Of a stretch of 64,000 bases of DNA, positions 5,428 to 63,010 are shown one piece after another; positions within the stretch are counted from its first letter, which is position 1, and every line of letters starts with the position of its first letter. The notes beneath the pieces are model-generated. The model was not told the origin of the DNA. It saw only the letters and a list, made by a program, of their open reading frames with translations, and did no database searches. The position numbers and the translations under genes are program-made. The stretch is from Bryum argenteum (Eukaryota > Streptophyta > Bryopsida > Bryales > Bryaceae): positions 33,644,101 to 33,708,100 of the forward strand of contig CM073321.1 in NCBI GenBank assembly GCA_037043015.1. Reading direction: 5' to 3'.

Positions 5428-5570
5428 CATTGGTCGGTCGCCCCATAGTATGATTAGCAGATGCAATGGAGAAATAACAGAAAAACAAAATCGGACACAT
5501 CGGTCGATCGCCCCATAGTATGATTAGCAGAGGCAGGGGAGAAATAACAGGAAAACAAAATCAGTGTAGC
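5428..5570. repeat. 70-bp direct repeat carrying CGATCG palindromes, in last intron of ParB-like gene
   Basis: Two near-identical 70-bp units start at 5428 and 5498. Each begins with a relative of CATCGGTCGATCGCCCCATA and continues GTATGATTAGCAG. They sit in the intron between 5594 and 5405. The same palindrome family fills the large intron at 8.5-9.6 kb of the same gene. Confidence 0.75.
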
Positions 5571-8500
5571 GACGAATTAGATTACATACTTACTAATGCA
5601 ATATCTGTGATGTTGGGACCACCATGCACGTTGATCAAGAGTACGCCGTCCCTAATGAATGAGCGTAGAATCTCCGCAGCAGTGCTCAGATTCAAGGACG
5701 GCTCGCTAGGACGTCGCCAGTCTCGGTCTGCAATATCCTTCTTCGACTCTCTCGCTCGAAATACTCTTTCCAAACTAGACCCTGTAGTACATTTCTTCGT
5801 CATCATCCAGTAGTCGAAGCTCTCTTGTCTACGCATTTCAGGGTTCTTGGCAAAGACAAATACAATGTATACAACATAGTCTCGTCCGATGCTGCTCGAG
5901 GGGAAATCATCATCTGGTTGAGGAATGTAGTGAACAATGTGGTAGTCCCAGGGCTGCGAATTAAATCTTGCTGACCGCAATTGAATCTCCTTCACGATTT
6001 CCACCATCCCGTCAACGTCCGTCACAATGATTGCCGCTGTATACAAGTGATGCGCTTCTATTCGTCGAGCTCCTCGCAGGCATAAAAAATGCCAGTAAGT
6101 CTTCTGCCCTCCATCAGTCTAGCCTTAGTCTTGCCTTCAACAGTGGTGAAGCAGAAACAGAACATCAAAACCTTGATTTCTCTGTCAGCTAACCAGTCTC
6201 TGGTCATTTGCTCTTGGATAGAGGAATCGAGATCTCCTCTGAACCAATCAAAACTCTGGCACTTGTATGTTTTGCTGAAGAGTTCTTCAAGAGTGTGTTC
6301 GACAGGAGCCGCTTTGATCGCTGCATAAGACAGAAGGAGAGATTTGATGTTCGAAGGAAGGTCACTGTCTTTGGGATTCTTCACCAAGTTGTTGGTGCGT
6401 AGTTTGAGAAACTCCTGTCTCCCCGGTGATGACTGTACTTTGTTAAGTAAAGACATCATGACATTGCGATCAATATTCTTCTCACGCTCGAACTTGTCCC
6501 AATCCTCAGCAACGTAAGGAATGTACTCCGACTTCTTGCTTGGAAGAGGTTTGCTCTCTACCAAAAACAAGAGTTCATTCTTGAGGACTCGTAACCTCTT
6601 CTCCGTGTTGCAGAAGTCAACCATAGACATCAACGTCGCAGTTTCAGACTTTGAGTTCGTGCTCTTCACGCAAATTTTCTTCTTCTGGATGAATTGCGCC
6701 ACTGTAGAGACATCTTCATTCCGCATCCCATGGAGAATTTTCAAGTCGTTCTCGACGAACAACTTCTTTGGATTAATAACGACTTCATGTGGAGCCGGTT
6801 CCCTACCCCATTGATCTAGAAGCCTCCCTCCCAACCACTCTTTTTCAATCTGAACCCAAACTTGGAAGTCGGGATCATCAAGATATAGCAGTGGAACTCT
6901 TCCATCTCGTGCATTCTTTCATTGAGTACCGTTACCAGCGAAGATGGCCTTCAATTGAGGAAGGAATTCAGTCTGCAGCGAAAGCCCAAATACATTTGGT
7001 AAACATACGAAGCAATGGCAACATGACACTACGATATTCATTAGAAAGCAGAACTAATATTGAACAACTGCAAACTTGAGTTTTATATGATCATTGCTAA
7101 GGCACCGGGGGATTGCGCGATGCTGAACTGGAAATTGTAAATCCTCTAAACCTACAATAATGAGTTAGCTTGGCGTAGGAGAATGATGTGACCTTAAACT
7201 TGTCGGAGTGAACGCGCCCACAGAGAGCAGGAGGAGGTTTTCCGCAATCCGTCCGAGCGACACGAGCATTGGAGAGTTGCTCAATATAATTATGTTTAGT
7301 CCTCTCCCTAGCAACATCTTGATTTTGGACTCGGGAAAGATAGAGGAGCTTCTTATGGCTGGACTGATGGCACCACACATGAATGATGGCGAAGTTCGAT
7401 AGCAGATTCTTCTTGAGGTCCGAAATATGTTTCGGACCAAGCACAATTTTCTTGTGAGCTTCAACGGTGTGCTGGCCACCAATAATGAAGAAGTGCGTAT
7501 CTGCTGTAATCTCGCTCTCAAGTGGTGCACGGTCGAAGTAAACCGGAGTACCTTTATTACCGAAGGCCTTGAGCGGTACGACAACCACCTGAGCTCTGAC
7601 GAGACTTATATCGGGGACGATGTCTATCGCCATCATCAAATGCTTAAGCCGATCCGGTTCGAGCCCGCGGTAGACCATCTTCCCCGGTTCTGCAAGGTGA
7701 AACTTCGAGTGATTCACGAGGAGGTCAGTACCTGGAGGTCTCTGAAATGTTCCAGTCCCCGCCCCAAGTGCCTGACAATGAATATACAAAGGGCTAAAAA
7801 CCTTGTCATAGAGCACCGTGATTTCCTCGCTTCGTTCTGCTATGAGAAGTTTCTTGTCCTTATTGGTGTAAGTCACGGCCTCTTCAATCGTCAGTTCCTT
7901 CTTAGAGTCCGCTTTTGACTTCTTCCCTGCTGGAGCCTTGCTTCCGTCCGTTCTCAGCTTCACTGGCGACTTTCTTTTCTTGGTAGGCGTTACAGCATTC
8001 GGGAGAGGCTCCTCGGCAGCAACTGCGGATTCGTGCTGGGCCTCGAGCATAATACCCCAACATACATTGAGGTTGGCATGAGTAATACTCGGATCCTCGT
8101 CAGCATTTAACCCCCTCCCTTCACAACTTTTCGAAAGTCCGCAATCTAACTTTCGGACATCGAGGCGCAGCCCATATAGTCGGTCTTTAGGATGTCCCGT
8201 GAGAGGATCTTCGTGAACAACTAGAAAAACAAATGGCCACATGTCCTTCGCTACTTCTAAGTGCAATACCTCCATGCCGGTGCTTGTAGTTTGAGATCTT
8301 CCATTTGCGCTGGCAATTACTGGAACTAATATAGCCCTAGCACTTGGAAGCTTCTTCCAGAGGAATCCCCAGCCTCCAATTGACGGCAGCACACTATATA
8401 CTGCTGGGACTTTACTCTTATCAGCCATAAGCAGGTTCTCGTCACGAAGCCAGAATACGACAAAGCAAGCGGTTCGGATCGGATGCAAGTCCTCCTGGGC

Positions 8501-8573
8501 TTCTTGAAATGAAGGATGTCTGAAGGAAGCAAACACAAGAATTAGGATCTGAAGAGAAAGACATGATTATTTA

Positions 8574-9410
8574 CATGGGGCGATCAACCGATGATGACGA
8601 CCGCTTAACGATACACTGGTGGTCTGGGATGACCCACTCGGTTGATTGCGATTCTAAATTCCAAGTCTCTTGTCTTCTCTATTGTTCCTGTCATCGGTCG
8701 ACGGCCCGATGGAGTGTGCGAACACGATTAAAACAATTCATCAATTCAATATTTAGAAACACTGCTTTTTCTCCATCTGGCGATCAACTGATTAATCAGA
8801 CAGGTCATCTTCCGGATTCTAGAGGCTACGCACTTGTTGACTAAAACCTGCTTCCAAGTCTCAGTTCCATCATGTGCACAAACGTATTGCATCAGTCGAT
8901 CGCCCCATGTCCACTGAGATTTACTATAAGAGAATAGCAAAATCTCAAAATAGAGATGGACTGGTTGTCTGTCATCGGGCGTTCGACCGATGGATTGGAC
9001 TGGTTGTTTGGCATCGGGCGATCGACCGATGCATAGAACTGGTTAGTTGTTCAGTGCATCAGTCGATCGCCCCATGTCCAGTGTGAATTTGTATAACAAA
9101 ACAGCAGTATTTGGTGATAGAGATGGACTGGCTGTTTGGCATCGGGCGATCGACCGATACACAGAACTGGAGGTCTGGCATCGGGCGATCGACCGATGCA
9201 TAGGACTAGTCAGTTGTGCAGTGCATCGGTCGATCGCCCCATGTCCAATGAGAATTTGTATAACAAAACAACAGTATCTGGTGTTAGGGATGGACTGGCT
9301 GTCTGGCATCGGGCGATCGACCGATGTATAGACCTAGAGGTCTGACATCGGGCGATCGACCGATGTATAGGACAAGTTAACTGTTTTGTGCATCGGTCGA
9401 CCGCCCCATA
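8574..9410. repeat. Array of 20-bp palindromes CATCGGGCGATCGACCGATG in an intron
   Basis: Twelve good copies: 8574, 8692, 8890, 8973, 9012, 9058, 9140, 9179, 9224, 9308, 9346 and 9391, plus weaker ones at about 8778, 9480 and 9583. The sequence is nearly self-complementary about CGATCG. From 8973 on, the copies form a higher-order tandem unit of about 168 bp (starts 8973, 9140, 9308), each holding two forward palindromes and one in the reverse version. The whole cluster lies in the intron between exons ending at 9665 and starting at 8519 of the ParB-like gene. Confidence 0.85.
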
Positions 9411-9879
9411 CACTGACCGAAAAATTTACAAAAGCAATATCTGCGAGAACAACTACGTCCTAATAGTCGTCCTCCATTATGCGATCGACCCATATGCTGA
9501 AATCAGTGCTCAACGATTGAGCGTAACGTACACAGTTCATCGTACGGACAGTTACTGCACTAGAGAACACAGGAAATTGCTGCATCGGTTGATCCGCAAC
9601 TGAACCCCAGAATCCTAATGACATTCATTCTCAGATAGACACAAGAGCACGAAGTGATCTTACTTCACATTCGGAGAATCCGTACAGTCGGGATTTGCTT
9701 CTTCAGTCATTGCTTCTTCGCCGAGTAATTCCTTGTTTCGCTTCTCGAACACTTTCAGAACTAGATGAGGACCACGGCCACGAATCCAAGCAGTTTGCTT
9801 TGTACGCGCCAGAACTTTAACAAATCTGAGGCCGAATTGTCTACACAATCTGCATTTGAGAAAAAAAAACCGCTTCATC

Positions 9880-10289
9880 AGTACTCTATTCTATTTTAAA
9901 ATGAGTCTGAAAGCGCGAGATTTAGGGTTTGACTTTTAAATATCAGAGTTCTTCAATCAATGAAGTAAGCAACGTAAAAAAATTAGGAGGCTAGCTGACG
10001 CACCTCTCGAACTATGAAACACAACCGGAAACAGCTAACATACGTCTAAAACATGAATCCGAAGGCAATGAAGCAGTTTGTTTCATGGAACAGAAACAAA
10101 CGCATCCACAGATCAACTTCTTGAACCTATTCCGAAGAATAATCTAAAAAACAACTCAATTTTGGAATCGCTAAGACTTTGAAAACGCAATTGTAATGCA
10201 AGTGAAGAATCATAATACCCCTAAACACAACGAACACAATCAAACTCAAGTGAACAATGAGCAATCGGCAAAGCATTCGGAGATTTAAA
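9880..10289. other. Probable intron of the ParB-like gene
   Basis: No long open frame. On the minus strand it ends in a T-rich tract and CAG at 9861, a good splice acceptor for the 9860-9665 exon, so it is most simply read as intron or 5' untranslated sequence. Confidence 0.35.
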
Positions 10290-10535
10290 CCTCCGATGCG
10301 CAGCAGCTGCTTCGAAGCTTCAATTCGTGACGCTCTTCAAATCCGACGAGCACACGGGCAGGGGTTCAAGAACTGATGCGCATTGGCACGCACGCAACGG
10401 AAGCAGAATCGAAGCGAATAACACGCAAGGCACGCACGCAGCGGAAGCAAAATTTTCTTGGAAAAAACAAATGAACGCAGCGCGCGCTCACCGCTCAAAA
10501 CAGCAAGCGCGGAAAATGACTTTGTGACGTCACGC
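10290..10535 (-). promoter_or_regulatory. Putative 5' region of the minus-strand ParB-like gene with CRE palindrome
   Basis: A GC-rich island in AT-rich surroundings, with repeated GCGTGCGTGCC motifs. It ends in the perfect palindrome GTGACGTCAC at 10524-10533, a classical bZIP (TGACG/CRE) binding site. Its position upstream of the 9860 exon and the GGAG/GTTTAAAT donor-like sequence at about 10290 fit a first exon plus promoter. No start codon could be assigned. Confidence 0.3.
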
Positions 10536-10649
10536 TGCCAAATCTACTCATTACGCCGCCACCTTCAGTCATGATGAACCTGCACAATCATACTTTTATT
10601 GTCCTCTATCACTTCCTTGTCGTATATTTATATGTACAAAATACAATAT

Positions 10650-10815
10650 ATTCATACCCTTACCTTGGCTAATAATTATATCGTGGCTAATATTAATATC
10701 TTGGCTAATATTTATACCCTTACCTTGGCTAATATTGATGACTTGGCTAATATTTATACCCTTACCTTGGCTAATAATAATACCTTGTCTAATATTTATA
10801 CCCTTACCTTAGCTT
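10650..10815. repeat. AT-rich tandem repeat (ACCTTGGCTAATATTTATAC)
   Basis: The phrases TTGGCTAATA and TATACCCTTACCTTGGCTAA recur several times head to tail with slight variation, as direct repeats of roughly 24 and 60 bp. An apparent open frame over it is a by-product of the periodicity. Confidence 0.85.
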
Positions 10816-11927
10816 CAAGAAAATACGTATTCAATATGAATGCATATGTAAATGAAATACTTGTTATTTGCACTCGGTAATAAAACGAAATTATTTTATA
10901 ATCAACTCACAAACATATATTCTTGATATTTGTATAAATTCATCTTTAAAGTGAAAATGAAGTTAATAATGTTTTTATTCACTATGAGGAATATCACGTA
11001 TGAGCATTTGGCTGATCTTTATGATCTTTACGAAAGGGTTTTGTAGAAATCTGAATTTTAGAAATATTTCACATGTAATTGTATCATAGGATGATGAAGC
11101 AGAAATGAATCAATAATGCAAAGATTTTGATGTACCTCATTGTGTATTACCAAATAAAATTCTTACAAATCTATCTCTTTAGGAAGAAGGTTTTCATATT
11201 ATTTCACAATACTAACTCAATCAAATTTTCCTTGTTGTATGATCTATGTATCATTTCCTATGTGATTTTTCAAAATTCCAGAATTTTTATTCTCATCTAG
11301 TAGGATTTCCTTCCTTCCTACGTTACAAAAATGATATTAATACAACTTACAATGACTAGGTTGCCAATTTTGAGTTGATTTTTGAAAGTATGGGTTCCCC
11401 AAAGTAAATTTATAAGTTCAAACTTACGAGGCTACGGTTTTTTTTCCTTTAAAATTTAGATGTCACAAGCTACACACTAGTATGTTTAAAATCAATCTAA
11501 GGTTGATTCATTCAGATTATCTTCAAGATCCATTTTACGTAAATTTCTCCTTTGATTTTTTTGCAAAGCAATAATTAATTTCTTTAAAAAGAATTGGTTT
11601 CTACAAAATTAATGTCTTCTATGCTAATTCAATTTAATTTCATGTTCTTTTCATGATTATGAGTAAATATGATCATATGAACCTAATGGAAAGCTCTACA
11701 AACTCACTGCAATTGCATAAATAATTGGGAGTCTTTGTGAATTGCATCATGGTGACGTTCTAAAGACATGAAGAGGTTCTAAAGACATGAAGAGTCGCAA
11801 ACACCTAAAGGCTTTAATTATTCAATATTTGTAAAGTATAATTGAATTTTTTTACAAAGTTCATCATCACTAACAATTAAAAAAGTGTTATTTGAAATCA
11901 AATCATGTATTTTTCTATGTTCTAAGT

Positions 11928-11959
<32 letters not shown>

Positions 11960-12334
11960 ATGCAACATGTGTTTGGTAAGCTCATATAATATTGTCATTT
12001 TCTTGGGAATTAAAGTCACTTATCATATGAGATTACCAATATCCATGTTCCATTTGCTGCAATCAACTTTAAAGTAAGTTTGGAGGATTTTTTATTCACA
12101 TTTGAATGCAACTAACAAATAACAACATACAAATTGCAGAACTTTCTTGTCATTGTAATATCAACTTTTCAAGAACTACCAAAATTGAACTACTTCCATA
12201 TATTATATAAACTAATACACACATTTGATACATTGGAATTATAGATGTTCCTAGTACATGAGTACGATACTTATCCTGTTCAAACTTGTGTATTAATATA
12301 TGGCATAATAGTCTTATCACTATACAACGATATT
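10816..12334. other. AT-rich intergenic DNA
   Basis: No supported gene. Contains a pure run of about 30 T at 11929-11958, which could be a retroposon tail on the plus strand or a simple slippage product. The motif around 12220-12270 (CATTTGATACATTGGAATTA) recurs at about 12953, flanking the 176-bp array. Confidence 0.5.
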
Positions 12335-12840
12335 CTTATATTTTCTATGCCGATTCCAAGTGTTGTGGGCAAATTTTGTGAAAGGCAACAACATGATCGT
12401 ATGGTGCAAACGATTTGCAACTTCTAGAATCAATTTTTAGCTAGTAACCCATTATCAGGCAGTGTTACCTGAATGAATGATGACTTGAGGTCATGATTCC
12501 TGACATTCTTCTTATATTTTCTATACCGACTCCGAGTTTTGTGAGCGGATTTTATGAAAGGCAACAACATGATCGTATGCTGCAAACAATTTGCAACTTG
12601 TAGAATCAATTTTTAGCTAGTAACTCATAATCACCCAGTATTATCTGAATAAATGATGACTTGAGGTCATGATTCCTGACGTTATTCTTATATTTTCTAT
12701 GCCGATTGTAAGTGTTGTCGGCAAATTTTGTAAAAGGCACCAACATGATCGTATGTTGCAAACGATTTGCAACTTGTACAATCAATTTTTAGCTAGTAAC
12801 CCATAATTACGCAGTGTTACCTAAATAAAAACATTAATAT
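12335..12840. repeat. 176-bp tandem repeat, three copies
   Basis: CTTATATTTTCTATGCCGAT and its variants start at 12335, 12511 and 12687, spaced exactly 176 bp apart each time. The rest of the unit (AGGCAACAACATGATCGTAT, then CAATTTTTAGCTAGTAAC) is well conserved. The third copy fades at about 12840. Confidence 0.9.
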
Positions 12841-13010
12841 ACCATGATTCATGTAATATAGATAGGAAGTAATATTATTTAGTGACATGATTATAATTGG
12901 TTTTTACATAATTATGACAAGGTTATCACCTTCAATAGTTGTATAAGTATGTTCATTTGATATATTGGAATTAAATAATATTCCTACATGATTATGAATA
13001 ATGATATTAA

Positions 13011-13768
13011 CCCTAAACGTCCTCAAGAGAATTATGTGAAACGAAAAATAGTATTTGGTGAAAAAAATTTACATGAACATCATGGTCTTTGGATGAACTG
13101 TAACAGATTTTTACTTGGAAGATTTGTGATCCAGATACTTTTGGTATTACAGTTTGCAGTGATGTTTCCACAATGAAAAAAGTGAAAAAGTGGATGATTT
13201 TCTAACAGGTATACCTTTTTCATCCACCGTTAGATTTCAACTTTAATTTTTTGGAACGGATTCTAATTAGAGTCTACTTTGAGTACATTGTAGAAAAAAT
13301 CTTGACAAAATCGAAGATGTTTCGTAGATAAGGCGTACAGTTTAGTGCAAAGGAACTAGTTTTGGATTGTTTTCCCTTCGTAAATTTTTAGGTAGTTTTC
13401 TCCATTGCAAGGGTAATTTTTGAGCCAAGTAATTATTCTGATGATAATTTTTTACCAAGGGGTACCATTAAGATGAAGATGAAACACTTTGTAATTCGTG
13501 ATTTTTTCATTGGAGTAGCTTTATTTGGTAAATTTTTTACTCTGAAGTGAAAATGGTGAAAATTTGTAGCGTGTTTTGCGCAGTAATATGTTATGGTCTT
13601 GCAATCTGAAAGGCCTCATGACTCAAAGTTTAGTCCACATGACCAACAACAAGTCTATTACAAGTTTGTACGGTTGAAATCTAAATAGCTTATATTCATT
13701 TTCATCTATCAATGACACTTTCTCGGAAACGTGATTGTTGAATAAAAATAGGCTGGAACGTTTAGGGG
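13011..13768. mobile_element. 758-bp TTAA-flanked element with CCC(C)TAAACGT ends (piggyBac-like MITE candidate)
   Basis: The left end reads TTAA then CCCTAAACGTCC; the right end reads GGAACGTTTAGGGG then TTAA, so the termini are inverted repeats starting in CCC and flanked by TTAA. TTAA target sites and CCC termini are the signature of the piggyBac class. The interior is AT-rich with no transposase. The inverted match is short (about 10-12 bp), and CCCTAAA is also the plant telomere unit, so chance is possible. Confidence 0.35.
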
Positions 13769-13946
13769 TTAAGAGATGCATAATTATGTTAATTGTTTAT
13801 AAACTAGAACTTTACTTGTTGAACCGTTTCATGCTCAATCCTACAAAATGTTATAATGTGGATTAAATTGAAAGACTAGCTGTGGTACAGGACTATGCAA
13901 TCACTAACGGTTGCAACCGTAGAGGACAATCATAATGTAAACCGCG

Positions 13947-14442
13947 GTGCGGCTGACACCGACTCCCACATCTCGTACAAATTCCTTTTTATTCTATTTC
14001 ATTTTTTGGCGACTAACATCTCGCTCATCTCGGATCTCCCTCCATTTTCAAGAAACCGGTAATGAATATTTAATTCACGGTCTTTCCCACCATTTCTCAA
14101 GCCAGCACCCATCATATAAATCTGTGTTCCACATTCTCTTCAGATTCCGACTGACTTACAGTAGTAGCACTCGCCCATGCCCTTTTCTACAGAACATTAC
14201 GTATTTTGATTTCATTGTGTCACGATGTGTTTGTGTGACCAAAGTTGATGCTGGAGTTAGGGTCCTTCTAGTTGATGGAGACATTCTTTTGTATGAGCAG
14301 CAAAGTGTCGGCGATTCAATCTGGAGTTGTTGGCTACTTGCTACTCATCCTGAAATTTTAGTTCGACGTGTTTCCAAGAACTTGCGATTTCGGCATCAGA
14401 CTTCTACTGCACAAGACGATCTCGCCGCTGACTGAGGTACAT
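13947..14442 (+). CDS. Open exon-like segment of unknown function
   Basis: An open frame of about 160 codons ending at a plausible donor (GAG/GTACAT). I see no recognisable domain. It lies upstream of the DUF7869 gene together with a short exon-like piece at 15051-15113 (TTTGCAG acceptor, ACA/GTAAGA donor), so these may be its 5' untranslated or leader exons. The open frame begins without a convincing ATG. Confidence 0.25.
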
Positions 14443-15050
14443 TGCTCAATATCCAGTATCAATCTTGAAGTTGTCATTAGAACAGTTAGTGGATTCAGTA
14501 ATCCTATCTTATTACTAGATTGCGTTATATGCTAGAGGAAGTCATCATAGTCCTCTTAGTCATTCCTTATGAAACGATCTGGTTGAGTTGTAATTGTTTA
14601 GAATAATCAGTAAGCACTCTTAGATCAACCTACGAAAGATCTTGTAAAGAATCTGTGAGAAGGATGATCTGAGCAAGCTCAAGATTATAATAGTTGTGGT
14701 GGAATCGTTGTGGTGGAATTCACACCTTGATTGGATCAGAGTATGCCAGTGACTATCTCAATTGAGTGACCATCTTATGATAATGGCCTTCGAAGGTTTC
14801 AGAGATTTCTTCATCTGCCGCAATCTCTTCTGTAATTACGGCCATTTCTGTATAGGTGATTTAGTTGTAATAGCTCATAAATCCTCGGGAAGTGGTTCTT
14901 GAGTTTGAGTTTCTACAGTACTACTATTTTCGTGTTATGACAGAGGACTGTACGGATGGTTACCAACGCTTAGCAATATTCATTGAGTCATCAGCGGTAG
15001 GATACTTCTTACTGAATTAACATTTCACTCCCCACCTACCCTTTTTGCAG
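14443..15050. other. Probable intron
   Basis: T-rich sequence with no long open frame, bounded by a donor-like GTACAT and a TTTTTGCAG acceptor. Consistent with an intron between the two exon-like pieces on the plus strand. Confidence 0.3.
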
Positions 15051-15186
15051 GCTGAGCATCATTTGCAAGTCGATCACCTCGAATCACCCGGTCTGAGTGA
15101 ACTGATGCTTTTACAGTAAGACATCCATTTCCTGCTGCGCGTATCTCAGACTCGATGCGGCCTTGACTGTATCCTAAGCTTAGATA

Positions 15187-15762
15187 TCGGGCGACCCCCC
15201 GACACACCCGACGAGGTTGTAGTGAAAGCCATCATCGGGCGATCCCCCGATAGACCTAAGTGTTTGCTGCGGTTACATTCACCGAACGGATTCCTTATCT
15301 TCACTTAAGGCGAACATCGGTCAATCCTCCGATACACTGGCGTGAATGTTGTGATTGAAATCATCAAGGAAATCCTCAAATCTGTTTGGGAATATCCTTT
15401 GAAGATAGCATCGGGCGGTCCCCCGATACAGAAAGGGGATTCTTCTAGGGGCCAGCGTCGGGCGATCCCCCGATAAGATTCCAGAGAATGCCAATAGTAA
15501 CAGTTCTTTGTACACACCGGACGAGGTTGTAGTGAGAGCCCGCATCGGGCGATCCCCCGATACGCGGGACAAGGTTGTTGCGATCGTACACATCGGGCGA
15601 TCCACCGATACACCTCCCGGATATTCGGTGACCGCCAACATCGGTCGAGACTACTATCACCGTGACAAGTGCAACATTGTTTCATCAGCCTCAGTTGACC
15701 GTGAGATTCCAGCGTTGATACCTTACCCCTACTGAGCTGCATCGGGCGAGCGCCCGATATAC
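15187..15762. repeat. GATC-centred palindromes (CATCGGGCGATCCCCCGATA) upstream of DUF7869 gene
   Basis: At least nine copies or close variants: about 15187, 15233, 15314, 15409, 15457, 15543, 15591, 15640 (half site) and 15740. All share the frame ATCGGGCGATC..CCGAT. A 50-bp context (GACGAGGTTGTAGTGA plus palindrome) is duplicated at about 15207 and 15518, showing that some copies spread with their surroundings. They precede the ATG at 15777. Confidence 0.85.
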
Positions 15763-15776
15763 GTTTGCTCTACATA

Positions 15777-18700
15777 ATGGCGTCGGGTAGCTTCTCAAAT
15801 TCTAATTGGGTTAGTGGAAGCAGTTCACACGACACTGTGTACCGGAATAGGATGGATGTCACACTTCTTTATCCTGGGATTGGCGAGGTGGGGTCTGGTT
15901 TCATTCTTGAAGCCCATCCTGCTAGCGACTGGAGGGGTGTTCAGTTGCATGGCAATAGTAATGACTATGTCTTGCTACGGCCATCCGAGATCATTCCACA
16001 ATTTTTGGATTTTCCCATCGATCCACGCCAGATTGGTGTTATTGTCATCGGCTAGTCACTTGATAAGTCTGTGCTTTGGAAAGTCCTGGACTTGATGATT
16101 CCAGCGGAGGATTCCCACACTGATGATACTGATGAGGGTGTGGACTCCTCTTATATTGCAAGATCCCAGTGGGTAGGACACGAGGTAATGCAAAGAGGGG
16201 ATGGCGGTGTTGTTATAGCCTCAGAGAGAATCAGTTGCTGCCATTCCAGTGACCCCTACCAGGATGGTGTTCTTGGTGAGGACTGTGTTGGAGTCACTGT
16301 ACTTCAGGTAATGACCCGTGATATTATGTCCATTATGACGCATCAGAAGTGGCCCCTCTCAGAATGCTTTTTCGCATTCAGCGGTCGATCCCTCACTGAC
16401 ACACTTCATCACTTTGCGTCCCTGCCCGAAGTCGTCAACCCTATCGCATATATGGCGGGGATTCAGAAACCTCCCTATTGATTTGTCAGCAGGAAGCGCC
16501 GTGAGAGTCCAATCATTTCCATGTACACGAAAATGAGGGGAGATAGCGAGATTCGACAAATGAACGCGGAGAAGTGTTGCGACTCACGGTGTTGCCAACG
16601 ATTTCCCTGGTTACATACTCGCTCCGTTAGACAGTTGTTTTATCTAAAAGAGTATCAGGACAGGCGTGAGTACTGCATCGCGGCTGGGGGACAAAGGCAC
16701 TCCAAACCGGGGGTCAGACTGATGTTCATGACTCTAATGGGACTTGAGGTGTGCACTACGGCGTGGTATAAAATTCATGGTATCGCCAGATCGACGTTCT
16801 ATGGATACATTCGGAACTTCAAGGAAGGTGTTCTTTCTGGTCAGCATGGAAATAAAGGTATCAAGCGTCCCCGTATTGGGACGGTTCAAGCAATGGGCAC
16901 AATTGCAGCCATTGTGTCTAAGAACGCTGATCAGATGCCTAATCAAATGCGCGGAACTAGAAAACCCCGCCGAATCGACACATTGAAGTATCTTCCGGCC
17001 CTTAACAACTGAACGAAAGTTCACTCCGATGTTAATGAGGTAAATTCCGACCTTCGCATTGACATGTATGTTAGGTTGGGATGGGGCGATCGCCCCTTGC
17101 CTGGGCGAGGTTTCATAGGTCTACGTCTGTGTAGTAGGTTTCATTTCTCTGCTTCGCTTGGATTTGTAAAGAAGTCGATTTTTATCTAATGGGATTTATT
17201 TGAATTGTTCCGCAGACGAACCTTTCCTACGGCCTGCCGCCAGTTAGTCAGTCTGCGATTAGCAGAATCAAGACTATCATGTTCAATAATGTTGCTATCA
17301 AACCCGTTGGAAGTAGTTTCGCAAAATGTACCGAGTGCGACACCCTTCAGCAGTTTATTTCAAGGAGTCCGATTGGCAGTCCTGAGTATGTTTCATTCAT
17401 GAAGCAGAAACTTTCTCATTTGCATCACCAGGCATCCTGTCGTCGGCTATATGCATCTTCGTGTGAAGAGTCAAAGCGGAATCCTCAAGAATATCTATGT
17501 GTGATTCATGACAAAATGGATACCGCGAAGACAGCTCTTCCACGGATGAGGACTACAACAAAGGCAACCTCTGGCTTGGGCCAGCTTCCAATGAACGTGA
17601 CAGGAATGGTTGCTCATGGCCACAGTGACGGCGCCTATGCGCATTACTCACCGGACTGCTGGCCCTCTGATCCCAATGCTACCATTTCCTCTCTTGCAAA
17701 GCTGTTTAGGTAGCTTTTAGAGCCTCCACTTCGAGAATCGAGGGCGTTGTTTCCTCATCCTCCAGCTAATTCTCTCTTCGAAGCGTTGTTACGCGGAAAA
17801 TCCAGGTGCATCGATGCCCTAACGGTCATGGATCTGAACAAGTTTACTGGCGCCTCTCCACTACCTAAGAAACTGTATCTTCAAATAGACAATTCCGCGA
17901 AGGACAACAAGAACAAGTACCTGATGTCATTTCTATCACTGCTTACGGCCAAGGGGGTATTCGAGGAAATTCAGGCTGGGTTCTTTTAGTCGGACATACC
18001 CATGAGGATATTGATACGTACTTTAGCCATCTCTCGAAGGCTCTCAAGAGCAGGAATACCTTCGTGCTTGCAAACCTTATAAAAGCTTTCATGGAGTCTC
18101 AAGAATTGTCGTTCATGCCGGAGTTTGCGCAGGAAGTTGCAGATTTCAAGTCTTACGTCAAGGGTTACCAATGTGACGGAGCAAATCGATTGATTGGACT
18201 TGGGAAGATGCACCTTTTTAAATTCTATGTTGACTCTGACGGCTGGCCAGTAATGAGATGGAAGAAGTGAGCGGTGGGTTCCCAATGGCAACCGCTTAAC
18301 AAACCACCAGTTCGTCTTTGGATAGAGGACATCAACGGGCTACCTTTACTACCGTCCGATGATCCGAACCCCGTTCCTTTTAAGCATATGTGGGGTTGCG
18401 AAGTTCCACCTGAGACGAAGAATCAAGCGAAGGCGCATGAGGCTGCAGCCAAAGCAACAGACCGACGAACTTTCATGATGCATGGAATTCGTAAAGACAT
18501 TGAGTACTGGGAGAGTGGTCGGAGGAGGTGCTCAACGTTTGCTGCTGCATTCCAGCCATATGTCGAGTACTGGTCTCGGGTGCTGACAGAAATCCAGAAG
18601 CCTTTGCCCCCCACACCGACTCGATTAGTTGACGGCTTCTGGCCGCTTCACGATTGGCGAGGGCCCTTGTTCCCCGTTCCACGCCTGACTTTGCTACCTG

Positions 18701-19143
18701 TGGATGTTACTCCGGAGGATGAAGATATCGAGGCATACTGCGGGCCTGCTAATGAGAGGCCGGAAGAAAGATTTAACCCCAGGCGCCAGATCGCTCCCCT
18801 TTGGTGGGTCCTCCTCCGACCTGAAAACCCAGCAGTATGCCCTGTGTGGCTAGGTCGGGCAGTGTCCCCTGTTTGTAGAGACGAGGGTGTTCCTGAGTAC
18901 GAGAAGTTTATTATCCAGTATTGGGAGCCCCAGAACGCAGCGCGAGACATGGCAAAGAAGTACGAGAATTGTTGGTCTGCTAAGTGGGTTGTAGAGGATC
19001 GTCGTCTTGAGTGAATCGACGTTGGCGCCGTATTGTATGCGTCATATTCGAAGATTAGTAACCCGAAGTCTCGTACTATTCCTAAGAAAGATAAAGCCCG
19101 TGCCCTGGACAACTTAACAAGAGCCAACGTTGCTGACCCTTAA
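15777..19143 (+). pseudogene. DUF7869-type RNase-H-like transposase protein, frame preserved but broken
   Basis: Starts MASGSFSNSNWVSGSSS. Exon one (15777-17039) carries a Cys motif (KCCDSRCCQRFP) and a helix-turn-helix-like region around ARSTFYGYI. After a 176-bp intron, exon two (from 17216) holds CVIHDKMDTAKTALPR, LQIDNSAKDNKNKYL and VGHTHEDIDTYFSHL, the Asp-containing and H-T-H-E-D motifs characteristic of DUF7869. The frame is cut by stops at 16053 (TAG), 16479 (TGA), 17010 (TGA), 17711 (TAG), 18268 (TGA) and 19012 (TGA), and by one base lost near 17985. Reading resumes in frame after each, ending at TAA 19141. Most stops fit loss of Trp, Arg or Gln codons by C-to-T or G-to-A change. Length (about 1060 codons) fits a full-size protein. 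Probably a dead transposon or TE-derived gene. Confidence 0.75.
17082..17104. repeat. GATC palindrome inside the DUF7869 gene intron
   Basis: GGGGCGATCGCCCC, a perfect 14-bp palindrome, lies inside the 17040-17215 intron. It shares the GGCGATC core with the arrays on both sides of the gene. Confidence 0.7.
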
Positions 19144-19177
19144 TGAAGGCATACCTTCGTGAGGCTCAGTGAAGTGC

Positions 19178-19372
19178 GTCATTGGGCGATCCTCTGATGT
19201 CAGATATTCTTCTCAAAGTTGTCCCACAATGCAGGCATTTCTTTGTGGGGCTGAGTGATTTGTATTATTGGGCGATCCCTCCATGTCAAATTTACTTCTC
19301 GTTGCTGACTCATAACGGAGGCTTTTCTTTGTGGGGCTGACTGAAGTGCACCATCCGGCGATCCCCCAATGA
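19178..19372. repeat. Three GATC palindromes downstream of the DUF7869 gene
   Basis: Degenerate copies near 19180, 19265 and 19350 (CATTGGGCGATCCTCTGATG and relatives). They sit in roughly 80-bp units sharing AGGC..TTCTTTGTGGGGCTGA, so this is a short tandem array. It mirrors the array upstream of the gene. Confidence 0.75.
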
Positions 19373-20730
19373 CAGATATATTTCTTCTTGTTTCACTGCC
19401 TATGTCTACATCTTCTTTATATCCTGTTCTTCAGATCAGCTGACGAGCTTCGGCTATAGTTTGATTTTTATATACATCAATCCGTCCTACACATATTTTT
19501 TTGGACTTGTTTTTCCTAATCGACATTATGAAGATTATACGTTTTGTCATAGCTCAGTTCATTAGCCTTATCTGTATCAAATTCAGTTTTATAACGTTTT
19601 CATATGAGAGTCTAGCTAAATCACAATTTTAAGTACAACATGAGAGTTCACCCTACTTCTCCGAATATTGTCTTCAGGTAGGTCTTACCCTTACCTCTTT
19701 CACTTTCAGAAGCCTATTGCTTAACCCTGTCTTTTTCTTTCCTAGTTCTACGGTAGACAAGGTAATTAGCTTACCTCTCTTTGCTTTTTTGCTTTAATTT
19801 CTATAATCAGAAGGCTATCCGTCAGCACTTTTGGCTTGATTCATTCATGCGTGACGATCTTATCGGGCGCGGTATGTTTGAATTTACATCTTTGTCAAAG
19901 TCTTTGAGGGCGTCAAATGTTCATATCATACGAACGATATAATCTCGGGCACAATTCGTTTATGTCCTTCTTATGATCACAAATGATAATTAGCTAAACT
20001 AGTGTTGCTTTCTGTCCCTAATGCATTGGTAGTGTTTTATTTAATATGTATTTCTCTCTTCAAGGACTTCTCTTCTATTGTCCTTCGGGGTGTCCACCAA
20101 TCACTTCTTATAATATGGACTTGCATTATTTTTAAGGCCCATTAACAATGGCTGCGCCTAATAATCCATTGTTTAGGCATTGTCCTCTTCAATTACGTGT
20201 ATACTCATCATGAGTAGTCTTCTCCTTAAGTACTTTAGTCCTTATGATGGCTCCCATGATTACGCGTGCCGCCCGCCGCCGTCATCGAACCTGGAGTGGT
20301 CCTCATACTGCCTGATGTTGGAGTCGACCTTTCTGTATATTTGGAGCTTCTCTTCCCAAATCCATGCTGCCATTTAGGATATGCTTCATCGTGATTTTCC
20401 TCACTACTCTGCAGTCCGTCTAGAATTCTACTGTTCGGAGGCAGTTCACTTTCTAGTTCTCTTGTTCATTCCTTTCAGAGGAGGCTACAAAACTCGCACC
20501 GAAGAGGTTGCAACTTCCTAGACTACCTTATTCCTGAAGCATGTCTTCTTCGTTTTTCACTCTTGCAAATCAAGGCGAAAGTATAGAATCTCAGGTGATC
20601 TTCTTACTTCTGCTCTTGTTCTCTAGTTTCAAATTCTTTTTTCTGTATTCCGTGCACACGCACTCTTGCTATCTTAATATCAGATTGATTACCGTCAACT
20701 AAGCTGATTGATTTGTTTCGGTGTTTGTAG
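19373..20730. other. T-rich intergenic or intronic DNA
   Basis: Long pyrimidine tracts and several acceptor-like TTTCAG/TTGCAG sites on the plus strand suggest intron or 5' untranslated sequence of the small gene at 20731. I see no convincing coding stretch. One stray half palindrome (TATCGGGCGCGGTATG) lies near 19861. Confidence 0.35.
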
Positions 20731-21129
20731 ATGGATCCGACGTTTGTCGCTACATTTGTAGATTTCATTCTGCAGTCTATCCATAGAGACTGTGTGTGGG
20801 ATCCGGAGTTTCAGTTTGACCTGGACTTTGAGTCCTTGCAACTCATCGTCGACCTCGCTAGAACATGCTCACTTTTCAGGACGTACCTTCACACCCGTGT
20901 GGAGTATTTTGCTCTGAAATTAGCCGTTTATTATGTAGCAATTTCGTAGGTTCCATATTGGGTTTCTCCAGCTCAACAAGTCGTCTTCTAGGTGCGGACG
21001 ATATGGTCTAACTTCAAGGAGTTGCATTGTGGTCCTCAAGCTGCCTTCTATCGAAGTGTCTACGTTCACAAGCCATTAGCTCAAATGAGCCCTGAAGAGC
21101 TCATGTCGCTCTATGAAGTGTTACAGTGA
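20731..21129 (+). pseudogene. Unknown protein fragment, two in-frame TAG codons
   Basis: ATG at 20731 begins MDPTFVATFVDFILQSIHR. The frame runs 132 codons to TGA at 21127 but has TAG at 20947 and about 20989. The sequence around them (PYWVSPAQQVVF, VRTIWSNFKELHCGPQ, AQMSPEELMSLYEVLQ) looks like real protein. No domain recognised. Both stops could come from CAG. GATC palindromes follow at 21.35-21.6 kb, as around the neighbouring broken genes. Confidence 0.45.
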
Positions 21130-21350
21130 TCAGTGTAATGAATTTCATTTCCGTTTGTATAGATAGCTTAAAAGTAGCCATCAAACTTTGTTATTTGTCC
21201 AATGCCCAAACTGTTTCATGGATGTTGGTTTCTGTAATTTTCACATGCATATTTAGTCGCGCTCTATCCATTCGTATAACGTATTCAAGTAAAATCCATC
21301 GTATTTTAGTACAATGAATGACGATAAATTCATGCTCTGCAGTCTCGCTT

Positions 21351-22976: not shown

Positions 22977-23186
22977 TTGCATTCCGTGGAAGCCTTGAGA
23001 GCTTCAAAACAAGCTCGTGTCAAAGAAAAGGAAGAGAGAACTTCTTCATGGTATGCATATATTATATACGATAGACCCGAAGCGCCTCATTGCGGTTTCG
23101 AAAATCTACAACACAACGAACCCTCTCAAGCACGCCCAACCGACGTAGGGCAACCAAATTGTACATGGGAGGTCAATTTGGATTGA
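22977..23186 (+). CDS. Short open segment, unknown
   Basis: About 69 open codons (AYIIYDRPEAPHCGFENLQH) upstream of the FCP1-like pseudogene. It could be an early exon or a chance frame; no domain recognised. Confidence 0.15.
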   Translation: MHSVEALRASKQARVKEKEERTSSWYAYIIYDRPEAPHCGFENLQHNEPSQARPTDVGQPNCTWEVNLD

Positions 23187-28250: not shown

Positions 28251-28259
28251 AAAGGTTTA

Positions 28260-49785: not shown

Positions 49786-49789
49786 TTAA

Positions 49790-53877: not shown

Positions 53878-53892
53878 CAATGAATGTGCAAA

Positions 53893-54935: not shown

Positions 54936-54939
54936 TGCT

Positions 54940-56060: not shown

Positions 56061-56063
56061 TTG

Positions 56064-57052: not shown

Positions 57053-60000
57053 GCATACTAGTTATATTGAAAGATAAAATTTATATACACTCAATGGTGG
57101 CTGTTTTTGCATAAGACTACTTAGATATATTATAAATTCTTTCCAAACTATTACGTATCAAATTGGAAGTTTCGAATGCAAGGAGAAATCAATATCCACC
57201 AAATAATGAAGAATGTATGGTAAATGAAGTTTGATCAAAATTTTGTACTAATGTATGTATATATGTGCGTAAAATACAACAAAGTAGATTATGTGGTATC
57301 CATTGTTTTCACTATATTTTCGTATATTTCATTTTTTTATTACTGTATTTTAGTGTATTCTATGTATTATTTTTGGTAACTAGTGAAAAGTAATAGCTCA
57401 AAATGTCTATATTTTAAACATAGTGCATGCCTTGTATACCTAATAATGCTACTCCATGTCACACCAAACACAAGACAAATGTACTTTAGTGTGTTTTAGG
57501 AGGTCTATTTAATTAATCAAATTGGATAAACTTCTAAAAATCTTATAATGTAATACATTCATATGATATAATAGTTATATCATAAAGCACTTAAGATAAT
57601 GACGGGTCAACGACTTACGCTAGATGAAATAGTAATTGCTCGATAGTGACATGGAGAATGATGAGGAGAACAATTTGACAATTTTGATCTAATACCATTT
57701 TTCTAATAGAGGAACAAACATAGGATACATTGGCTTATTAACTTGCCTAGAAAGATCCAATCTATCAACATGAAGGACAAATAGGCAACACCCAATTGAA
57801 AGAGAGATAATCACAAATAAAACATCATTCAATAACATCAAAAAACAATTTAGAGTAAGAAGTTTAGAAGAACAGACGCATATGTGAAATTCTCGAGGAG
57901 GTCTATGCTTTTCTCAAAGCACGAAAACTCTCATTCAAAATTCTCTACAAAACATTCTAGATGATTTTTTTGCAATGACACTTTGAGTTAATTGTGAAAT
58001 TGGAAACTCTTGTAACATTCACTACACCTCTGTATAATTAAAAAAAAGTTCCAATCCTGAAACTCTCTAATGGTCTTTGCCTACCTAATATTCCACCCAA
58101 AGTAGCATGGTATCACGTCTTGAAAGCCAAATAGTGTAGCCAAATGATGTTATTGGGGCAATATCGACTCCACATGGACCTCATGAACAACTACAAACTA
58201 AATGATGAATTGTAAACGTACGTGAATCTGTCAACAACACTGCCCAAACGACGCCTATGTTCTTCATCTTCAACAGATCGATTTGTTTGAGAGAACAAAG
58301 TAAAAATGGTGATTTTATCCAACCAAATACATGACAAGTTTTAGACCCAAATTTATTGATGGTCTAATATATGATGATAATGCTTTACATGTTCTTGAAT
58401 ACATTTGCAATACTGAACTATATCAGACAAAAAAATTATTAAAAAAGTAAATGTTTAGGCCATGATTTGACAAGATCATCTAGAAACACATTTTGTGACG
58501 GTGAGCATTGCTGAGATACACTAGAATGATCCTCTCTGGATTCGTAAAGAAGTAACTTATCATGATACAATAATTGTGGAGCACACTCATGCTTTAATAA
58601 AAAATGAGAAAATAGACCTAATTTAACGTGAACCAGTTGCTTGCACTAGATATTTTGAATATTGAATCTAGGCTTTTGTCCTAAAGTATCATATCGCGTG
58701 CCAACCACATTGTCGGCTTAAGTGCAGTGTAACAAAATCCTTCCAAGCCATGCTTATTCTAATTCCAACCTGCAAGTAGACACATCTCTTGTACAACTTC
58801 AAAACAAACTTGAGTTGTAAGTCAATTCCTCTTACAACAAAGTAGGTGGAACTTCAAATGATGACACACCATCTAAACAAAAAAGTAGAATAAACTTTGA
58901 AAATACAAAGAGTTTTTTAGCAAAGATAAGGCCTGCAAAGCCTTATTTACTCGCCCCATGCGCCTCAAATGAAGCCCTAGTCATGATAGCGCACCATTTT
59001 TTACACAAACAATCTCAATTAATGGGATGGTAAGTGAGAAAATACTGCCGTACTCTTAACTTCCTCGCGATCCCCTATGTCTTCATGGACAGAGCCAATG
59101 ATTAGTAGGAATGTGATATAGAGGTAGAGCCAAGTAGTACATGTTCCAAGCTAATGAAAAAACACCACATAGGATCATTGTAGGAGCCCATTGAGCTCTC
59201 CTATACTTCATACATTTCAAGTTCACGGATATGATATTTAGATTAAGATCCACATTGCCATCAATCTTAAGCAAATGTCAAGAGCACAATCTCTAGCATG
59301 GTTCTTCTAAATTCGCCCATCATAGCCTTTTAACTCCAACTTACTACATGTAAGCACCTTCTTTACTCACACGATAATTCTGCTTGATGTCACGTTCAAT
59401 ATAGTTGGTGCTATTTGTTGTAAATGTACAGAATCACGTGGTAGAAATATCCGTAACATTGGTCTATAATTGTTAACAATCCGCCTCCCCGCATAGTGGC
59501 ATACTTCAAAGTGTTACCATGTTGTGCAATAGCAAGGTTCTCATCTGCTATAGGAATGATTTGTTGAGACATTTGTGCACATGTCTTCTATACCTACACC
59601 TATGTATCAAGGTCATCCATGTTGCTCACCATCTCAAGAACCCTTCAAATTGAAGTTAGTTGAACTAGATTCCTTCTATATAAGAAGAAGTAGGGAGCAA
59701 AGGAAGGAAGAACGCCATATTCATTATTTTGAGAGTATCCCTCAATAATGAGAGTATTGTTGAGTCCCAGAAGTAATGATAAAACGCCAAATAGGCCGTT
59801 AAAAATGGTATTAAGTAGATATAGATGGATGAATAATTGTATACCAAAATGGAATATACAGGAATGTATGTTTATTTGTAGACATTGTATACACCAATTG
59901 ACCCCGTCAAACGAAATATGCTCATCCAGATATAAATGTGAGCTCTAGTTACATATGAATGATCTGAATGTACGATGGTAAATACAATATTTCTATACCA

Positions 60001-60092
60001 ATAGAACAATACAGTATTGTGTTGAATGTCGGCTATCTATGAAGAACTACGCCGATCAATGTTCTCTAAATCATATCTAGACTGTTGCCATA
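57053..60092. other. AT-rich DNA with no supported gene
   Basis: Only short scattered open stretches; none has a recognisable motif or splice pattern. Probably old repeat-derived DNA. Confidence 0.45.
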
Positions 60093-62049
60093 TCACAAGT
60101 GCGAACGGCTTCGAATTTTTGCTAGTGCCTTCCACACTTTTGGTCCATGACTGTAGCCTGTATATGGTGATGAACGAGAACTTGATTTTTCCCATCTTTG
60201 AAGCTTCAAAATCAGTTGCTCCCATGCATCACGAACTGGAGGACAAGTAACTCTGGGCTGAAATCCATCGTGTGATTGAGTCTCGCGGTGACCCTTGTGT
60301 AATGGCGGGCGCATAGTACGGAAGGGCAAACGCGAGGTATCAACAGCATGGGCAACAGACGGTTTAGGTAGCCCCATTAATTCTGTCATCCACTCTCCAA
60401 GTTCTGTTGCCGGCTCCAAAGACTTCAATGGACAAGGAGTAGAGAGAGAATGTGTTGTCGCACCACGAAATATTTTCAGCGACGATGCCTTATGAGGTGA
60501 TACAGGAAGAGGCGGGGACTCAAAGATGACCGGTATGGGCACGACTACTGCAGCAGTCGCCTAAGTCCATGAAAAGAGATAGTGAAATGTAGATAAATCA
60601 AATTACGATTGAAGTTAACAACCACAGAAAAATTCATAGATGAACTGCTTCACGTATTACATACCTGTACCGGAAGTGCATCCTCGACTAACTCGGAATC
60701 ATCATAAAGCTTTTTTTGCAGAGCGCCACCTTGACTTGATTCGTCTATCATGGTACGGTTCTTCAGCAGATAAGGAGAACATGGAGAGTGTGGTCGTTTA
60801 CCGTCATAAGGAAGACTATCCACAACACCATCATCGATTGCGATTGTCGAGTAGTCCATAGTTGATTGTGTAGTAGCTGCTGAGTACATTATATGGCCCA
60901 TTCCACTCTGCGAAATTGTGTATTTTCCGTAGTCCAAAATCGAATCAGCAGAAAGAGCGCAACGGAAATCAAAATCATTGTCCAAACCCGAGACGGAATT
61001 GGACACCTGGATACAAATTCATTTTAGAGGAATCATCAACGAGGATGATATGCAATATGATATAGCCAAATCAGCTCGACTCGAGTTAAATCAATGCTGA
61101 GAAAACTAGCACCATCAAATACTACGATAAAATAAAAGGTCGGACACAAGCCCGCTCTAAAACAAAATCAGTCCGAGAGGAAACAATATTATTAAAATCA
61201 TTTATTATAATCTACACAATATACATGGCAAATTTGAATCATGTCTGGTGAGACCAATCATGGTTAACTAGCCTAATCAAGCACTAGCTTTCTAGAAGGC
61301 TCTACTGCGTTACTAAGCTCTTCGTATTCTGAAGTATCGAGCTCTTCAGAGAGCATTCTACGCCCCCTGTTGTCTTCCCTATGGAGAGACAACAAGCCCT
61401 GACCGCGCCTTTGATGTAGGCGTTGAATCCAAGGGAGGAGCTTGTCCACCAAGAATCTGTCAGATACATCATGCTTTGACCACGAGACTGGCAGTACGAC
61501 ATTCTCTAGTTCATTCACAACGTGCTTCTCATGGCTATCGTCGATGATGATCGTGTCATGCTCATTAAACTTTGAGTTCAGAGCACCAAAAAGCATATCT
61601 AGTGGTTTGAGGAAGAGATCCTTATTAGTCCCCTTCAACTTGAAGTTGAACAACTTATTCCGTGGTCCACGAACCTTGACAACCTCACATGAGATCTGCC
61701 CCCAAATAAGGTACGGAAAGGCCACACCCCGAAACAAGTAGTCACATATGGACTTCGTGGTCGCATGAACCATCGAACTCCATACGAAGACGTATGCAAC
61801 TTCACTCAACTCACGAAGGAAATCAAGGCAGAAGGGCTAAACGAAAACGGCCTTGAGACCAATCAGAGCGGGTAGGAGAGAGGAATGTGCACTCGCGACC
61901 ATGTTGTAAACTTGGTCCTTTGGCATAAATCTCTTCTTCTTGCAGACACAAAGAATACAATTCAAGTCCAGGATGACATTGAGCCACTTGCATGGCACCC
62001 TTGAAGGAATAGAACGAGGGAGATCCTCCACGGCATCATTACGCTCCAT
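60093..62049 (-). CDS. FCP1/HAD-like family protein, copy 2, C-terminal exons (possibly broken)
   Basis: An ATG at 62049 begins MERNDAVEDLPRSIPSRVPC, followed by WLNVILDLNCILCVC, which aligns with the DxDxT/V motif of FCP1/NLI phosphatases but has Asn for the second Asp. Then EVAYVFVWSSMVHATTKSIC, NKDLFLKPL, DTIIIDDSHEKHVVNELENV and LLPWIQRLHQRR (to about 61280) follow the HAD order, including the late Asp pair. A TAG at about 61820 (AVFV-stop-PFC) interrupts the frame. Exons about 61008-60665 and 60561-60093 continue with a Ser/Pro-rich tail ending RSRSHL-TGA. Without the catalytic Asp pair this is probably a pseudophosphatase. Whether 62049 is a true start, or continues from the upstream exons, is unclear. 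Confidence 0.55.
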
Positions 62050-63010
62050 CGTTGCTCATCCTCCAGTCTCTAAATTCTGCGTTCCTTGTGCTTTCGAGTA
62101 AACATTGCTTCAACTTCCATCCTTTGTCGCGCCTGCGCCTCCTCCTGCATTCTAACAAGCCTTTCCATTAGAGTGTCAACAGATGATGATTCCCTTCGCT
62201 TCTTCTCACGCGAAGGGGTGGAAGCCGGAAGAGAGCTATCGGAGAGGCCATGTTTATGGGGATGAAGAAGATGAGAAGATGAGCCTCGTCCAGTTTGGGG
62301 CGTTATCGGAAGTTGGGATTCGTAGGCCTCAACTTCTTGATCAGGATTGTCATCGTCGTCACTTGTCCCGATTACTATCCGTCTTGGGGCATTCACGTCA
62401 AGTGGTAACTCTACTCCCCTGCCCTTTTTCTTCGCCTTCTCCTTCTTGGCCTTCATGGCGGGTGGTGGTGGTTCCAGTCTTTCCTTGGATCCGGAAGCCT
62501 CACCGATCGGGTACCCACCTTCAATATCTTGACGATCCAAGTTGAAGACCTCCATCGAAAGTTTGACGACTTCGTCGTGCTCGTTGCTAGAGCTGATCGT
62601 GTAATTCATCAGCGAACACATCTGCGAGTAGACATAGCAAGATATAAACATCTCAATAACTTGTACGTTTAACCCGATTTGAGTTAAAACGGACCTAGCG
62701 TGTGAGAGCAGTATAATAATCGGCTGTTTGCATTCAACTCGACTCGTGTTCGATACGAAATATGAACTACTAAGCGCCAGCAATCAATACATTCAACTCG
62801 AGTCGAGTTAAATTTAAGAACGCATGAGAAAACATGGTTTTGTAGTAGATTTAATAATCCATTCAACTCGAGTCGAGTTGAATAGAATCCAAGTTAGTGT
62901 GAAATGATCCCTCGACACTGAAGTGCGCACTAACCTTGACTCCAATTAAATACAACAAACTTAGGAAGAAACAGATTCATGTCAAAATAGTCAACTCGAA
63001 TCGAGTTGAA
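61073..63010. repeat. Third palindrome family, TCAACTCGAGTCGAGTTGA, in introns of copy 2
   Basis: Copies at about 61073, 62668, 62731, 62790-62813, 62861-62884 (best match, extended by AT pairs) and 62991-63010. Five of six lie in the single intron between block B and the linker exon (about 63035-62623); the other lies between the HAD exon and the next exon (about 61280-61008). The sequence is nearly perfect about its central base and unrelated to the palindromes of the other loci. Confidence 0.8.

Follow-up and report, generated by a model that had tools for sequence, protein, structure and literature searches.

Lineage-specific palindromes of giant DNA transposons in Bryum argenteum as candidate protein-binding sites

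What are the short palindromes that recur along one stretch of the Bryum argenteum genome, and what carries them? The stretch, here called the window, comprises 64,000 nucleotides of the forward strand (assembly GCA_037043015.1, contig CM073321.1, positions 33,644,101 to 33,708,100), and an original prediction made from its letters had described three palindrome families, each confined to one or a few neighbouring degraded genes, in introns or just outside the gene. We are close to certain that these palindromes are parts of giant DNA transposons with two genes on opposite strands, one for a DUF7869 protein and one for a ParB-like protein. Three lineages of such elements, A, B and C, are represented in the window, and each bears its own palindrome in its non-coding DNA.

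Do the palindromes exceed chance? At up to three mismatches the window holds 19 A, two B and five C sites, with none in any of ten first-order Markov shuffles. At up to five mismatches the counts rise to 32, six and seven, against 0–1, 0–3 and 0–4 in four shuffles; because shuffled sequence reaches three and four, the weak B and C sites are individually non-significant. All 32 A sites lie within 5428–22267, all six B sites within 22507–25793, and six of the seven C sites within 61071–63009. The seventh, at 46042 with five mismatches, is at chance level and is the only site, C-like, between 28.8 and 59.7 kb. The three families thus stand where they had been placed and above shuffled sequence. 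Across the 258.8-Mb genome, forward matches number 748 for A (at most three mismatches; control, 2), 611 for B (at most two; reversed control, 0) and 2046 for C (at most two; control, 1), and it is the contrast of 611 with none that secures the B family, which has few members in the window. With matches in such numbers, the palindromes are not "locus-specific", as first proposed; "transposon-lineage-specific" is the better wording.

The nature of the carrier is clearest for lineage C, of which the window holds the left part (coordinates here and below are window positions; a strand is given where one applies):

59711–64000: lineage C giant transposon, left part, continuing past the window (defined by shared copy starts)
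59711–59736, plus strand: left terminal inverted repeat of C, with one mismatch to AACACCATATTCATTATTTTGAGAGT
61071–63009: C palindromes, at 61071, 62669, 62734, 62793, 62863 and 62991
62991–63422, minus strand: C-terminal frame of the ParB-like gene of C (match row C1:33707094, alignment)

On the left, 33 of 47 non-self match rows start at query position 2707–2713 and none further left (40 of 294 candidates scored); on the right, 38 of 41 end at 2281–2290 and none further (40 of 512 scored). Six copies show both ends. Their terminal inverted repeat of 26 bp, AACACCATATTCATTATTTTGAGAGT, is identical at the two ends in three copies and differs by two mismatches in the other three, and target duplications of 4 bp, read by eye, are exact in five (GCGG, CTTT, TTCA, TGAT, CAAG), with ATGG/GTGG in the sixth. 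Element C, with its sharp shared ends, terminal inverted repeats and target-site duplication, is a DNA transposon. It measures about 17 kb, the ends of one copy (copy f, C1:18860612-18878279) lying about 17.7 kb apart. Six fetched copies (about 15 kb) align along most of their length, in long pieces at about 82–97%, and each holds 31–34 palindromes (at most four mismatches) at largely matching positions; the 128-bp spacing of the last two C sites of the window recurs in other copies.

Lineage A accounts for the largest set of palindromes in the window:

5102–22332: lineage A giant DUF7869/ParB-like transposon, truncated on its left by another element that reaches to 5101
5084–5101, minus strand: CACTA-like terminus interrupting element A, CACGACAAAAAATTGGGC, reversed
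5428–5517: A palindromes downstream of the ParB-like gene (70-bp tandem unit)
5582–6118, minus strand: ParB-like gene of A, C-terminal frame, methyltransferase-like by eye (reading frame, alignment)
6058–6918, minus strand: ParB-like gene of A, next reading frame (reading frame, alignment)
7097–8566, minus strand: ParB-like gene exon of A with a GQHTVEA motif (matches genome-wide, aligned with the B and C homologues)
8574–9494: A palindrome array upstream of the ParB-like exon (167-bp tandem units, sites 39, 45 and 83 bp apart)
15233–15759: A palindromes, variant CATCGGGCGATCCCCCGATA, upstream of the DUF7869 gene (pattern search)
16482–19014, plus strand: decayed DUF7869 gene of A, probable transposase (Pfam PF25273, E 3e-14 on 17869–18270)
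19180–19371: A palindromes downstream of the DUF7869 gene (86-bp tandem unit)
21354–22267: A palindromes near the right end of A (2–5 mismatches)

The GATC palindromes at 5–9.6, 15–19.4 and 21.3–22.3 kb belong to one element, because a copy at C1:42797737-42816083 spans both A genes in collinear pieces. At the right end, eight match rows stop at 22330–22335 and none runs beyond (13 of 4434 candidates scored). Six of the seven copies scored on the left, out of 4565 candidates, start at 5102, and the seventh covers only 17310–22332. The copies begin there because the interrupting terminus, which we take to be CACTA-like, abuts that position; given this neighbour, and because 5102 and 22332 share no inverted repeat, we rejected 5102 as the true left end of A. 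No end was located for A on the left, for B on either side or for the window's C copy on the right. Just inside the right end of A, at 22289–22318, lies a 30-bp inverted repeat, TAAATATGGACT...AGTCCATATTTA, and the interior of the element holds a 176-bp tandem repeat in 2.8 copies (12331–12829).

Lineage B is represented by a more limited set of features:

22507–28720: decayed lineage B element, ends approximate
22507–25793: six B palindromes, one of them exact, at 22507, 22779, 23294, 23363, 23486 and 25775

The part at 26773–28720 recurs at about 76% identity, and of the 40 non-self match rows 32 stop on the right side at 28706–28730 (40 of 372 candidates scored). The consensus of the B palindrome, drawn from fetched loci, is TATCCCCGGGCCGGGGATA. 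The B-type ParB-like and DUF7869 genes come from separate fetched stretches, never from one, and the B DUF7869 frames were identified through their likeness to those of C.

Among the A, B and C loci the same two genes recur, a ParB-like gene with a GQHxVEA-like motif and, on the opposite strand, a gene of DUF7869 type. The ParB-like proteins of the three lineages align at 19–23% identity, with the GQ of the motif kept in 11 of 11 and its H in 10 of 11; the ratio of non-synonymous to synonymous change (Ka/Ks) in their exon sets, from four C and five A copies, is 0.21–0.48, and the A frame at 7097–8566 has 92 matches in the genome, itself included. The DUF7869 family, whose product is the probable transposase, matches this genome at 151 places or more; 14 control genomes gave no match. 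The degraded genes to which the palindromes had first been assigned do host them, and these are transposon genes.

Does each lineage keep to one motif? At up to three mismatches, 30 A loci (126.7 kb) hold 317 A sites and no B or C site, the B loci (18.1 kb) 58 B sites and no A or C site, and six C copies (89.5 kb) 175 C sites and no A or B site; reversed patterns are absent, save for three reversed B patterns in A loci. The B count covers six of eight fetched loci, leaving aside the window's own (L021) and one that repeats another (L024, of L023); the overlap between A loci L046 and L052 is counted twice, and the C set stands without L009–L016 and L067. Since the B and C loci were fetched or chosen by the palindrome itself, the independent test is that of gene proximity on contig C1, in which the sites were the 27 exact A matches of that contig and the first 100 listed B and C places each, and the genes 70 of 79 C-type, 40 of 64 A-type and 56 B-type matches, second fragments of a locus and lower matches being set aside. 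For all 27 A sites, 61 of the 100 B sites and 86 of the 100 C sites, a ParB-like gene of the matching lineage lies at most 12 kb away, against means of 0.5, 3.3 and 3.6 with shifted genes (maxima 6, 13 and 21); near the ParB-like genes of other lineages, only 0–3 sites are found. The A motif is still kept at a protein identity of 43–44% (L053, L054), and lineages at 19–23% have unrelated motifs.

Where do the sites sit within the elements? They occur in introns, intergenic DNA and flanks, upstream and downstream of genes. Among 307 A sites (at most three mismatches) compared with their matched exon in 29 of 30 loci (L052, which overlaps L046, was dropped), none lies inside the exon more than 40 nucleotides from its ends, 34 lie within 40 nucleotides of an end and 273 outside; the original prediction that palindromes are kept out of exons is borne out. 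Of two introns defined from sequence, one in A holds six tandem units of about 72 bp with one palindrome each, and one in C, bordered by GTATGT...CAG, contains two C sites. Tandem units measure about 45, 70, 72, 86 and 167 bp, with varying copy number. Local amplification or homogenisation had been offered to explain why loci differ. Tandem expansion inside elements does occur; the differences between loci are those between transposon lineages, not the product of amplification locus by locus, and local homogenisation as their cause was not borne out.

Several features of the sites point to a protein that reads them as DNA. A first estimate of conservation was biased, the sites having been chosen in the copies compared. 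With sites chosen in a third copy instead, the C palindromes diverge by 0.088 and their flanks by 0.217, i.e. 2.5 times more slowly, and of the 26 palindromes in copy a, 24 diverge less than their own flanks, one diverges more and one equally. CpG is kept at 0.83 in palindromes, 0.58 in other non-coding and 0.77 in coding DNA, an estimate biased by site choice. All three motifs have symmetric position weights. Because of this symmetry, the slow divergence and the presence of one motif per lineage, protein-binding sites are the best supported of the three options that had been raised for these palindromes.

We consider it very probable that the palindromes are DNA sites for a protein rather than RNA hairpins. 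Were they hairpins in transcripts, serving splicing, termination or small-RNA production, the intronic position of several and the foldability of perfect palindromes would fit. So would two position pairs in C with an excess of paired changes, 2/18 (20 against 8.6 expected) and 9/11 (4 against 1.1), and base pairing could still play some part in the C sites. In A, however, of 352 sites 139 break the symmetric consensus at position 7 and 145 at position 14, and compensated changes of this pair number none against 53 expected; the limit of five mismatches at collection lowers joint changes somewhat and would not bring them to none. A thus keeps one uncompensated mismatch, as would suit a DNA site that is nearly palindromic but not a hairpin under selection. 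Arrays also flank genes, and Rfam gave no match on the window. We hold the hairpin reading to be very improbable overall, and for A it is disfavoured. Improbable, too, are functionless satellite-like repeats homogenised inside the elements by slippage and gene conversion: tandem units and variation in copy number are present as such repeats would require, but homogenisation of whole units fails to explain why C palindromes evolve at a rate 2.5 times lower than that of the adjoining DNA.

Another possibility, that of tiny mobile elements or hairpins inserting into introns on their own, drew on the dispersal and high copy number of the palindromes. It is scarcely credible now: positions and spacings are largely shared in six C copies, the sites are tied to one kind of transposon, and tiny mobile hairpins go unsupported because the sites largely hold their place in diverged copies and multiply as tandem units within the transposon. 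A further alternative takes them as transposase-binding repeats by which the ends are found and paired. The subterminal repeats of CACTA and hAT elements are short, element-specific and present in both orientations; the sites here are likewise element-specific, palindromic and repeated in both orientations, and some A sites (21354–22267) lie less than 1 kb from the right end. Unlike subterminal repeats, however, the sites are largely internal, many of them central or intronic, and C has none near its ends, the first lying 1.36 kb from the left end in the window copy and the last about 3.4 kb from the right in copy f. We regard end pairing as unlikely.

Which protein would bind the palindromes? 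Members of the ParB/Srx superfamily carry a GxRRxxA or GQHRxEA-type motif, and the GQHxVEA-like motif of A, B and C resembles it. In hhalign comparisons with a ParB-like partition protein of Staphylococcus phage 85, A3 gave a probability of 94% over 23 residues and A2 one of 88% over 22, and the family phrog_1033 ("ParB-like partition protein") gave weak matches to one protein each of A, B and C (E 0.33, 0.032 and 0.16). By eye, the C-terminal part resembles a methyltransferase of the type in which motif I comes last (DAILSVFGGGK), and a GGG stretch resembling motif I is present in C. Both assignments, ParB-like and methyltransferase-like, are tentative and drawn from sequence likeness. We lean towards the element's own ParB-like protein as the binder of the palindromes.

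A number of observations weigh against this attribution, or against so regular a pairing of lineage and motif. The phage 85 protein was picked through a weak match to the same motif (E 3) and makes a chosen pair. In the scan that found phrog_1033, three of six proteins went unmatched, and another PHROGs scan matched none of six. Among Pfam and NCBIfam families none rose above its cut-off for the ParB-like protein, the best being DUF6551 (E 0.0034, 17.3 against 26.8 bits), a search of the PDB returned nothing significant, and tblastn against phages reached no better than E 2. Two AlphaFold models were poor, with a mean predicted local distance difference test (pLDDT) score of 33.6 and 34.7, and no helix-turn-helix by which the sites might be read was identified in the protein. 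In eight translated stretches there is no catalytic [DNS]PP[YFW] (DPPY-type) motif, with EPAT in L035 as the one loose match. On the side of the sites, B reached only 61 of 100 in the proximity test, partly owing to an incomplete gene list; three of the 30 A loci are poor in sites at up to four mismatches (none in L036, three in L037, two in L048); five of eight A loci examined have only mismatched sites and no near-perfect A palindrome; and the paired changes at 2/18 in C run counter to a pure DNA site. The binder could alternatively be the DUF7869 protein or a host factor.

To which known systems do these elements compare? Sola1 elements duplicate 4 bp of their target; the 4-bp duplications of element C match Sola and equally fit other superfamilies, and the probable transposase gene matches DUF7869 only. 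Mutator-type elements carry a Mutator transposase and duplicate about 9 bp; given the 4-bp duplications, and DUF7869 rather than a Mutator domain, we rejected a VANDAL or other Mutator-like identity. A 4-bp duplication is described for Sola2 (PMC3627910). The closest precedent in gene content is Sola1-1_Ec32 of Ectocarpus, a 21.5-kb Sola1 transposon with a ParB-like/DNA methyltransferase gene on the opposite strand; the 2025 paper on it suggests that the transposon's sequence is bound and epigenetically marked by its own product, and cites relatives in green and red algae (PMC12477816). Its gene layout is like that found here, at 21.5 kb against about 17 kb. In contrast to its methyltransferase, the stretches read here show no catalytic DPPY-type motif, and methylation of the element's own DNA, as proposed for Ectocarpus, is therefore unsupported here. 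The available text of that paper has no word beginning with "palindrom" and names no binding site.

The arrangement of the sites has its nearest parallel elsewhere. VANC proteins of Arabidopsis, encoded by VANDAL transposons, bind short, family-specific motifs of these elements and remove silencing, and the motifs form tandem repeats in introns and in intergenic and terminal non-coding DNA (PMC5735166, PMC10398659). The elements here resemble them in the layout of the motifs and in having one motif per related family: lineage-specific motif arrays lie in transposon non-coding DNA. The VANC motifs, of 8–9 bases (YAGTATTAY and others), are shorter than the palindromes, and the main texts of the two papers contain no word beginning with "palindrom" (PMC5735166, PMC10398659). 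VANDALs, being Mutator-like, belong to another superfamily, and the likeness lies in motif layout, with a function that is demonstrated for VANC and conjectural for the elements described here.

The explanation that best accounts for these observations, at a probability of about 0.5, is self-recognition and anti-silencing by an element-encoded dimeric protein at lineage-specific arrays, and it leans on the VANC analogy. The palindromes would be loading sites for this dimeric DNA-binding protein, most likely the ParB-like one; with many sites bound in introns, promoters and intergenic DNA, the element would recognise itself and, so bound, might stay active against host silencing as VANDAL does through VANC; motif and protein would change jointly, giving each lineage its own specificity. 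Anti-silencing as the purpose of the arrays is, taken by itself, a tentative proposal by analogy. A more specific version borrows from bacterial ParB–parS, whose parS site is a palindrome of 16 bp. A ParB-type protein would load at the palindromes, spread along the 17-kb element, shield it from silencing and co-evolve with its site, so that no lineage would recognise any element but its own. The GQHRxEA-like motif and the similar site length suit this idea, with a homology that spans about 23 residues; unlike ParB–parS, the elements here lack a ParA and any segregation function, and carry many arrayed sites where parS sites are few. We find it doubtful.

What appears to be new is that three lineages each have a candidate site that is conserved, repeated and exclusive to the lineage, where the algal precedent, in its available text, names none. 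Among the papers listed by full-text searches, with subscription journals largely uncovered, none describes palindrome arrays in such elements, judged by title and abstract, and under the same coverage we found no paper on DUF7869. Co-evolution of protein and site in transposons becomes directly testable in this material, which may represent a second case, in another transposon group, of a system of the VANC/VANDAL type.

The elements are unevenly distributed in the genome. At least 64 of 92 A-type and at least 79 of 96 C-type protein matches, counted by hand, lie on C1, which at 44.1 of 258.8 Mb makes up 17% of the assembly; A and C are thus strongly enriched on C1, which is possibly a sex chromosome or another chromosome that does not recombine. 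Elements also lie nested there: an A copy at C1:17264139-17275803 is split by a stretch with B-type matches, and at C1:41398060-41398062 a C element begins where an A match breaks off. Near a distant A-type gene, in L053 at 3973–4083, there is a second palindrome array, GCCGGATTAGAATCCGGC, with a period of 31 bp. Two further features of the window are:

61273–61836, minus strand: NIF/CTD-phosphatase-like frame in C (Pfam PF03031, E 6e-9)
36957–37331: remnant of a Plant_tran (PF04827) transposase

The latter presumably belongs to an element of PIF/Harbinger type; the phosphatase-like frame is borne by C transposons and is perhaps a captured host gene.

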